35,319 bases of DNA from Candidatus Methylomirabilota bacterium (GTDB taxonomy: Bacteria > Methylomirabilota > Methylomirabilia > Methylomirabilales > Methylomirabilaceae), in the NCBI GenBank assembly GCA_028870115.1, contig JAGWQH010000003.1, positions 1 through 35,319 on the forward strand, in the 5' to 3' direction. This document shows positions 28,114 to 33,102 of this stretch, piece after piece. Positions within the stretch are counted from its first letter, which is position 1. Every line of letters starts with the position of its first letter. Below the pieces are notes generated by a model, which was not told where the DNA came from, ran no database searches, and saw nothing but the letters and a program-made list of their open reading frames with translations. A program made the position numbers and the translations under genes.

Positions 28114-29025
28114 CTACAGGTCTTCAAAATGCGCGAGGCGCTTGAATACCTTGTACCTCGCCTCGATTTCAGGATAGGTCAGCCGTCGTAATCGGTCGAG
28201 CGAAAATGCCTCGACGTTAAAAGAGGCCATCACCGATCCCATCACAATCGCCTTCCGGATGTTGGCCTCCTCAAAATTCATCGTGTTGGCAAGGTACCCG
28301 ATGAAGCCGCCGGCAAAGCAATCGCCCGCTCCTGTCGGGTCAAACACCGAATCGAGCGGAAGCGCCGGCGCGGCAAACCATCCACCCTTTCGAACCAGCA
28401 GCGCCCCGTACTCTCCTCGCTTGATAACCAGTGAGGTCGGCCCCCAGCCCAGGACCTTCTGGGCGGCTCGGACCAAGTTCGGCTCGTCGGCAAGCTGCCG
28501 GGTCTCAGCGTCGTTAATGAGCAGGATATCCACCGACTTCAGCATCTCCTGGAGCGCCTCGGGCTTCCCATCAATCCAGTAGTTCATCGTGTCGGCCGCC
28601 ACCAGCCTCGGCGAGCGTACCTGGTTAAGAACCTCCCGCTGCAAATCGGGATCAATATTGGCCAGGAAAACCAGTTCGCTTTCTTTGTATGCCTTCGGGA
28701 TCTCCGGCTGAAACGACGCAAAAACATTAAGCTGCGTTTCAAGCGTCTTCGCCTCGTTCAGATCAAACCCGTACTCTCCGGTCCACCGGAAGGTGCGCCC
28801 CGGGACCCGTACCAGCCCTTTCAGATCAATCGACCGGCTCTTCAGAAACGCCAGGTGCTCTTCGGGAAAATCCTCTCCCACCACCGCTACGATGCGAACG
28901 TCGGCGAAGAAGCTGGCCGCTACCGAGAAATACGTGGCCGATCCCCCCAACGCCTCTTTGGCGTTGCCGAATGGCGTCTGAACGGAATCAAGCGCGACCG
29001 ACCCGACAACAAGGATGCTACTCAT
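28114..29025 (-). CDS. PfkB/ribokinase-family sugar or nucleoside kinase
   Basis: A 303-residue PfkB kinase. N-terminal glycine motif: EALGGSATYFSVAASFFADV (residues 25-44). The C-terminal signature DPTGAGDCFAGGFIGYLANT carries the catalytic base D235 and the anion hole. The substrate is not readable; ATP is the usual donor. It lies between mtnP and pccB on the same strand. Proximity to MTA phosphorylase suggests a role in handling ribose or deoxyribose moieties or adenosine, but that is inference. The ribosome-binding site GAGG (six bases before ATG 29025) is inside a 9-bp sequence duplicated on the other side of a palindromic element. Confidence 0.88.
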   Translation of the reverse strand: MSSILVVGSVALDSVQTPFGNAKEALGGSATYFSVAASFFADVRIVAVVGEDFPEEHLAFLKSRSIDLKGLVRVPGRTFRWTGEYGFDLNEAKTLETQLNVFASFQPEIPKAYKESELVFLANIDPDLQREVLNQVRSPRLVAADTMNYWIDGKPEALQEMLKSVDILLINDAETRQLADEPNLVRAAQKVLGWGPTSLVIKRGEYGALLVRKGGWFAAPALPLDSVFDPTGAGDCFAGGFIGYLANTMNFEEANIRKAIVMGSVMASFNVEAFSLDRLRRLTYPEIEARYKVFKRLAHFEDL

Positions 29026-29030
29026 TATCT

Positions 29031-29105
29031 ACCTCGCACGAAATCCCCCCCAAGTCCCCCCCCTTTGGCAAAGGGGGGTGCGGGGGGATTTTTCGCACCT
29101 CGCAC
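29031..29105. mobile_element. Palindromic MITE-like insertion flanked by a 9-bp direct repeat
   Basis: ACCTCGCAC occurs at 29031-29039 and again at 29097-29105. Between them lie 57 bases built as a long imperfect palindrome: AAATCCCCCC, a run of C, TTTGGCAAA, a run of G and GGGGGGATTT. Removing the insert and one repeat copy would leave an 18-base gap between mtnP and pfkB, the same as the pfkB-pccB gap. The duplicated bases include the pfkB ribosome-binding site. As RNA the palindrome would make a very stable hairpin inside the operon. Confidence 0.65.
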
Positions 29106-29109
29106 AATG

Positions 29110-29973
29110 TTAGATATACTTCCCGATGATCGGCCTCAGCCGCTCCCGAACATCCACAGGAATCGCGTTGCGAGCGGTGATGATCGCATCCCGCATCGCG
29201 CTCCCGCACGAACAACCGTCCCTGCCGGACGGAAACGATGACACCGTCGCTTTGATGATGGCCTTGGCGGTTTCGGCGTTTTGCTTCAGGATCGCGACTA
29301 CCGCCTCCACCGATACATCCTGCTCTGTTTCGTGCCAGACATCGTAATCGGTGACCAGGGCCAGCGTCGCATAGCAGATCTCGGCCTCGCGGCAGAGCTT
29401 CGCCTCTTGCAGATTGGTCATCCCGATAACATCCACTCCCCAACTTCGATAAATCCGCGACTCGGCCCTGGTCGAAAACTGCGGCCCCTCGATACACAGG
29501 TACGTGCCGCCGTGATGTATTCGCGCGCCCACCGACTGCCCGGCGGCGAACAGCGCCTTCCCAAGAGCCGGACAGGTCGGATCGGCGAAGCTCACATGGG
29601 CCACGAGGCCGTTCCCGAAGAAGGTGCTGACCCGCCCCTTCGTTCGATCAAAGAACTGATCAGGAATCACAATATCCAGAGGCGGCAATTCTTCACGCAT
29701 GCTGCCTACCGCCGAAGCGGAAATGACCCACTCTGCGCCCAGGAGCTTGAACCCGAAGATGTTCGCGCGGAAATTCAGTTCGGACGGCATCAGGCGATGG
29801 CTGCGTCCGTGCCGCGCGAGAAACGCCACCTGCCGCCCTGCCAGGGACCCGATGATGTAGGTGTCAGACGGCGCCCCGAAGGGGGTCTCGACGCGCCGTT
29901 CCTCAACCCGATCGAGTCCCTCCATTTCGTACAATCCGCTCCCGCCAATGATGCCGATCAGCCCCTGGTTCAT
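29110..29973 (-). CDS. mtnP: S-methyl-5'-thioadenosine phosphorylase
   Basis: A 287-residue nucleoside phosphorylase cleaving 5'-methylthioadenosine (and often 5'-deoxyadenosine) to adenine and the sugar 1-phosphate. Motifs: GIIGGSGLYEMEGL (phosphate loop), FLARHGRSHRLMPSELNFRA, ISASAVGSMREELPPLDIVI, CIEGPQFSTRAESRIYRS and GMTNLQEAKLCREAEICYAT followed by VTDYDVW. The Asp-containing TDYDxW segment points to 6-amino purines, i.e. the MTA type rather than guanosine/inosine phosphorylase. The start codon overlaps the stop of mtaB by four bases (ATGA), so the two are translationally coupled. Confidence 0.92.
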   Translation of the reverse strand: MNQGLIGIIGGSGLYEMEGLDRVEERRVETPFGAPSDTYIIGSLAGRQVAFLARHGRSHRLMPSELNFRANIFGFKLLGAEWVISASAVGSMREELPPLDIVIPDQFFDRTKGRVSTFFGNGLVAHVSFADPTCPALGKALFAAGQSVGARIHHGGTYLCIEGPQFSTRAESRIYRSWGVDVIGMTNLQEAKLCREAEICYATLALVTDYDVWHETEQDVSVEAVVAILKQNAETAKAIIKATVSSFPSGRDGCSCGSAMRDAIITARNAIPVDVRERLRPIIGKYI

Positions 29974-33024: not shown

Positions 33025-33102
33025 TGGTGCGCCCGGGCAGATTTGAACTGCCGGCCTTTTGCTCCGCAGGCAAACGCTCTATCCGGGCTGAGCTACGGGC
33101 GC
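33025..33102 (-). tRNA. tRNA-Arg, anticodon GCG
   Basis: The minus strand folds into a complete cloverleaf: acceptor GCGCCCG/CGGGCGC, D-stem GCTC/GAGC, anticodon stem TTTGC/GCAAA around the loop CTGCGGA (anticodon GCG, reading CGC), a five-base variable loop AGGCC, T-stem GGCAG/CTGCC with loop TTCAAAT, discriminator A and an encoded CCA. It lies just after the YchF-like gene, convergent with it, and marks the border to the accessory region on the right. Confidence 0.95.

Follow-up and report, generated by a model that had tools for sequence, protein, structure and literature searches.

The window analysed here, a stretch of 35,319 nucleotides, belongs to a genome of 2,812,395 bases in 122 contigs (G000 in the comparisons below). 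This genome encodes pmoA (PF02461), a gene also present in 9 of the 14 congeners, and its owner is probably a methane-eating NC10 bacterium, a Methylomirabilis species. On the minus strand of the window, an mtnP-like phosphorylase gene is followed by a gene for a pfkB-family carbohydrate kinase across a gap of 84 nt (29026-29109; Table 1). The gap holds the nonamer ACCTCGCAC twice, at a repeat spacing of 66 and with 57 bases intervening (29040-29096), and reads on the minus strand TAA-CATT-GTGCGAGGT-GCGAA-palindrome-C-GTGCGAGGT-AGATA-ATG. Removing 66 bases from it therefore leaves 18 nt and keeps the candidate Shine-Dalgarno motif GAGG (29032-29035, minus strand), which lies in the pfkB-side nonamer and is likely the predicted ribosome-binding site of pfkB. 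A sequence-only reading of this stretch had described the exact repeat, the short gap restored by deletion and the retained GAGG just so, and had taken the nonamers for the duplicated target of a MITE-like element. Elsewhere in the window, a tRNA gene (33028-33102, minus strand) is the sole Rfam match at the gathering score.

Table 1. Features of the mtnP-pfkB gap in the window and genes of the host genome that carry the palindrome in frame.
Feature	Position	Strand	Remark
C-rich palindromic repeat AAATCCCCCC ... GGGGGGATTT	29041..29091	.	51 bp here; copies in the genome are most often 46 bp
Inner hairpin CCCCCCTTTG-G-CAAAGGGGGG	29058..29078	.	
Two GTGCGRR units (GTGCGAGGTGCGAA), mtnP side, adjoining the palindrome	29092..29105	-	exact match to GTGCGARGTGCGAR; includes the 9-mer at 29097-29105
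Second 9-mer GTGCGAGGT, pfkB side	29031..29039	-	holds GAGG; single-copy equivalent in G004 and G012
pfkB-family carbohydrate kinase, downstream gene	28114..29025	-	PF00294, 1.7e-25
mtnP-like phosphorylase, upstream gene	29110..29973	-	PF01048, 3.1e-45
Mfd	C42:34473		in-frame palindrome
FolC	C55:64586		in-frame palindrome
FecCD-type permease	C63:3202		in-frame palindrome
Copper-type ATPase	C78:23026		in-frame palindrome
AsmA-like protein	C99:2215		in-frame palindrome
TsaD	C42:29971		in-frame palindrome
PyrK-like protein	C25:39158		in-frame palindrome
QueA	C29:28054		in-frame palindrome

An inverted-repeat search of the window returned both the outer arms, AAATCCCCCC...GGGGGGATTT, and the inner arms, CCCCCCTTTG/CAAAGGGGGG. 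The block had been called palindromic; the inverted repeats stand, and the structure is an imperfect double hairpin whose long arms reach 79% complementarity. With up to 3 mismatches allowed, the window should hold 0.02 occurrences of CCCCCTTTGNCAAAGGGGG by chance, and it holds one, which is exact. The folding energy of the gap is -44.9 kcal/mol (z -3.95). Hence, the palindrome is not a product of chance. The Rfam search gave no family at the block, and a consensus terminator scan called no terminator there.

The palindrome is a small repeat dispersed over about 50 places in the 2.81-Mb host genome, and to this extent the sequence-only reading is supported. The outer arm AAATCCCCCC occurs 50 times, compared with 2 occurrences of the reversed control, and the inner hairpin core (≤3 mismatches) has 58 matches on each strand, compared with 0 for its control. 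Being a palindrome, each core is scored once on either strand; a few neighbouring matches overlap. Both outer arms are kept in about 27 copies. A stricter pattern finds 0-87 matches per genome across the genus, which is represented by 15 genomes, the host and 14 congeners. Within the class (70 genomes searched), the palindrome is confined to this genus and to genus g5 of family f5, and a scan of a species collection returned, among the matches listed, Desulfobacterota, Nitrospirota, Proteobacteria, Omnitrophota, Chloroflexi, Bacteroidota, Patescibacteria and others. Because many phyla are matched, yet matches in the class are confined to two genera, the palindrome is a widespread repeat type that has been amplified patchily.

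Transposition of the kind proposed would leave a 9-bp duplication at other copies too, and the sequence-only reading had suggested a search for copies each flanked by its own repeat. For each of 27 full copies we scored the highest 9-mer identity, in direct orientation, between the 12 bp next to one end and the 12 bp next to the other, with the left flank of one copy set against the right flank of another as the control. The window copy scores 9/9, which is unusual at a single copy named beforehand. None of the 26 other full copies has a repeat of 8/9 or 9/9 in this range (maximum 7), and a comparison at the offsets of the window copy gives 7/9 at most and far lower values for the majority. 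This is the outcome that the sequence-only reading had named as refuting it. Since no other full copy exceeds 7/9, the 9-bp duplication is not a property of the family, and its interpretation as a mark of transposition is not supported. Cross-copy flank pairs hit 9/9 at 0.12 per 27 pairs, and these cases stem from a background of the heptamer GTGCGRR, not from random sequence. Flanks are slightly more alike within copies than across them (mean 6.23 vs. 5.80 of 9), and 7/9 matches, at varying offsets, are found in 10 copies where 4.4 are expected; the presence of heptamers on either side would account for this slight likeness, although the likeness is no proof of it. It is easy to take a perfect direct repeat next to a palindrome for a transposition scar; the comparison with congeners below shows that a tandem-repeat background can mimic one.

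By its sequence, the nonamer GTGCGAGGT is a piece of GTGCGRR, a heptamer that flanks many palindrome copies. A global excess of the nonamer was rejected as an explanation, with 22 occurrences in the genome vs. 42 of the reversed control word. Several other occurrences of GTGCGAGGT adjoin palindromes (C25:38773, C29:74079, C29:75338, and C36:8968). The flanks of the 26 other copies show a 7-bp period of 0.315 vs. 0.256 in controls taken 250-585 bp away, a value that 0 of 2000 resamples reach; lag 12 is likewise somewhat elevated. Moreover, GTGCGRRGTGCG is matched at 10/12 or better in 8/26 copy flanks vs. 3/77 controls, and heptamers of the same direction stand on both sides of the copies at C47:42859, C104:28041, and C29:75275.

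The orthologous gap was taken from 13 congeners (G011 has no pfkB match, and in G003 the contig ends within the gap). The window's palindrome is in none of these 13 gaps. G004 and G012 have gaps of 15 nt (GGTGCGAGGTAAAGC and GGTACGAGGTAAACC), which lack a hairpin and place one GTGCGAGGT, or its one-base variant GTACGAGGT, before the pfkB ATG. The predicted empty site exists, therefore, in two relatives, yet it is itself a heptamer unit. Heptamer arrays lacking the palindrome fill most of the other gaps. The comparison with relatives, proposed earlier as a check, agrees with an insertion in that the palindrome is absent from their gaps and two of these are near-empty. In G006 the gap is occupied by GTGCGAA units that form a long hairpin (z -6.1), and in G002 by GTTTCGA units (z -6.9); GTTTCGA-like units are found in G008, GCTGATA and TTCAGCC types in G010 and G001, and TTCAANG/TTGAACC units in G005, G013, G014, G007, and G003, and in G009 GTGAGAAGT and GTGCGAGGC enclose another C-rich palindrome, unlike that of the window. 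The gaps of G003 and G008 fold no better than shuffled sequence. Lag-7 identity in the filled congener gaps is 0.38-0.59 (mostly 0.5-0.6) vs. 0.30 in the window gap. The TTCAANG/TTGAACC type is common to its five carriers and the unit numbers differ; the number of units thus seems to evolve more quickly than the type of heptamer.

A two-gene tree pairs the host with G010 (0.97), and its deep nodes are weak. G004, G012, G009, and G006, whose gaps carry GTGCGRR or a close variant, fall in other branches of this tree than the host. Because the carriers are placed in this way, a GTGCGRR unit plausibly stood in the mtnP-pfkB gap before the palindrome, an order that we infer from the two-gene tree and that depends on its weak deep nodes.

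With 14 congeneric genomes whose flanks can be aligned, gain, loss, and replacement can be followed at each slot. Flank pieces of 80 bases, concatenated into one query, located 15 further palindrome sites in three congeners, and 13 of them proved alignable; for C29:75275 and C68:5494, the loci of the relatives yielded no match that could be used. The congener slots at the 13 sites have a lag-7 identity of 0.355 (3001 comparisons) vs. 0.255 at 100-300 bp away (11001 comparisons), and lags other than 7 are about unchanged. At C99:2215, one congener has a CTCGCAC heptamer array alone and another a reduced palindrome within heptamers, and at C25:39158 the congener has CTCGCAC heptamers without a palindrome. 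At the FolC site (C55:64586), G005 carries the same palindrome at the same codon, G004 a short different insert and G001 no insert. Two congeners have nothing at C78:9876, and the congener sequence at C63:3202 is not clearly repetitive.

A single open reading frame crosses the palindrome at 8 of the 13 compared sites, and in each congener compared the homologous frame matches on either side of it (Table 1; the names of the eight genes were assigned by sequence reading, not by family search). The upstream match at C63:3202 is short because the insert lies near the gene start. The added peptide is of the type PPxPPFxKGGxGGF, in the forms KSPHPPFTKGGYGGIF, QNPPTPPLQKGGTGGF or PNPPVPPSYKGGVGGFR, and at the same codon position congeners have a heptamer-encoded peptide, another peptide or none. 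That only in-frame copies are seen needs no special cause, as selection for an open frame suffices.

Taken together, the block is probably a dispersed REP-like C-rich palindrome in a pre-existing 7-bp repeat slot, and its 9-mers heptamer units rather than a target duplication. The tandem slot (GTGCGRR) between mtnP and pfkB would predate the palindrome, and the flanking GTGCGAGGT copies would be units of the heptamer array, one of which may double as the ribosome-binding site of pfkB. The family occupies slots of this kind elsewhere too, both intergenic ones and, with the frame kept, ones inside genes. It would spread by a duplication-free mechanism (single-strand copying of the Y1/RAYT type, hairpin-primed or slippage repair) and would be kept since a spacer or a short loop peptide of this kind does little harm; in the mtnP-pfkB message, the block would be just a stable hairpin with no essential role. 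The single-copy gaps of G004 and G012 speak against this reading, as an insertion with a 9-bp duplication predicts exactly these for the window copy, where a duplication may therefore have taken place.

Movement of a MITE by a DDE transposase, with a true 9-bp target-site duplication, is the explanation to which these gaps (15 nt, near-empty, with the single 9-mer or its one-base variant) and the perfect repeat at the window copy would belong. The family is also small, bounded by terminal inverted repeats and present in many copies, as MITEs are. We nevertheless consider it unlikely: of all full copies only that of the window reaches 9/9, which its heptamer context explains, the other 26 stay below 8/9 and, at the window's offsets, at 7/9 or less, the 9-mer recurs as a heptamer unit beside other copies, and no longer element with the palindrome's ends was seen in the stretches of the genome examined, which are a part of it. 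A selected regulatory hairpin between the operon halves, be it an attenuator, an mRNA stabiliser or a transcription-translation spacer, appears highly unlikely. The fold is very stable and several congeners have a strong hairpin in the gap as well, but the gap differs in sequence and size from species to species, two congeners are free of a hairpin, no terminator was called at the block and the same repeats occur within genes.

Within the slot interpretation, copying of a REP/REPIN-like repeat on single-stranded DNA by a Y1 transposase (RAYT or IS200-like) is a possible mechanism that we entertain tentatively. The palindrome count tracks the count of Y1_Tnp genes over the 15 genomes of the genus (rho 0.76, p 0.001, kinship uncorrected), but the correlation may reflect mobile-element load alone. 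A cluster of Y1 genes in G009 sits among inverted palindrome doublets, and the single Y1 gene of the host has a related double palindrome ~150 bp upstream; by reading of its sequence, however, this gene resembles IS200 TnpA rather than RAYT. A target duplication is not expected from Y1 copying. On the other hand, G008 has 11 palindrome matches and no Y1 hit, G034, G018, and G029 have 8-13 Y1 genes and 0-1 palindromes, and several genomes of families f5 and f3 are rich in Y1 genes yet have no palindrome or one. The link between palindrome and Y1 transposase is thus circumstantial. A Y1 transposase as sufficient cause is unsupported at class level, where many Y1 genes go with 0-1 palindromes, and palindromes directly flanking every Y1 gene were rejected, as 17 of 20 stretches around such genes are palindrome-free. 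In contig C13 of G009 (L346:8949-9428), a palindrome doublet appears to break the frame of a Y1 transposase, and a neighbouring copy is uninterrupted there.

A further and rather doubtful proposal is that fixed slots, intergenic or inside conserved genes, persist across species divergence while their filler is rewritten, in frame inside genes: a heptamer type with inverted arms in one species, a second type in another and a C-rich palindrome in yet another. If true, heptamer hairpins and nested palindromes would be written at specific sites by a process so far unrecognised, such as hairpin-primed synthesis or the action of a dedicated enzyme, and not by ordinary transposition or slippage alone.

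Several known repeats resemble the palindrome in part. Intrastrand triplex motifs, or PIT elements, such as BoxC and TMECO (Holder et al., 2015; PMC4666352), share a C-rich stem, a short loop, a G-rich stem, a spacer of 3-4 nt and a second G-rich block, and likewise occur in many dispersed copies at sites that vary between close relatives. The likeness ends at the architecture, since the TMECO consensus (CCCTCNCCC... / CCCTCNCCCN3-6GGGNGAGGGN3GGGNGAGGG) is not matched; furthermore, all TMECO copies of E. coli MG1655 lie between genes (PMC4666352), whereas palindrome copies here are also in frame within genes. Rickettsia palindromic elements (RPEs; PMC2229807, PMC10969869) occur between genes and in frame in conserved genes, where they encode a recurrent peptide, and the palindrome described here likewise lies in frame in conserved protein genes, eight in number. 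Target duplication is not established in either. Compared by description, RPEs are 105-150 bp long, whereas the present palindrome is about 46-51 bp, C-rich, associated with heptamers and found in an unrelated phylum. Our observations add a free-living phylum to the Rickettsia-type occurrence of palindromes within functional protein genes, and they connect this occurrence with heptamer repeats.

Heptamer repeats are themselves known from the heptanucleotide multicopy elements of Geobacter metallireducens, which lie between and within genes (PMC2700814), and from the heptameric SSRs of Xanthomonas and Nostoc (PMC4692102). As far as the accessible parts of these two reports go, they too concern many-copy intergenic 7-bp tandems, some of them hairpin-forming, that vary between relatives; the heptamers are others, and those parts describe neither a nested C-rich palindrome nor a change of heptamer type between species at one slot. 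No paper on these repeats in Methylomirabilis was found in the literature searched, a scope outside which most subscription journals lie.

REP/REPIN sequences (PMC3733652, PMC3116915, PMC2817692) are, like the present family, short imperfect palindromes in many copies, and here as there dispersed singles occur together with inverted doublets. Unlike them, the palindrome has no constant GTAG or CGTC tag, nor was a similar constant end tag seen when the flanks of the copies listed were read, and its transposase link is circumstantial.

Two larger repeats were observed in the host genome. A longer related subfamily of ~78 bp (C47:9323-9456, C47:14091-14215, and C67:13612) is a single large palindrome in which a CCCTCTTT...AAAGAGGG hairpin adjoins a CTCCCTTT...AAAGGGAG hairpin, and resembles a REPIN doublet. 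Four places (C16:2161-2303, C49:13726-13868, C64:32185-32327, and C64:57324-57466) have in common a repeat of two inverted palindromes with shared outer sequences around GAGATGT.GTGCAAGAGTGCAATC and GAGCATAAAATAGCTTGC, and a doublet resembling it recurs in G009.
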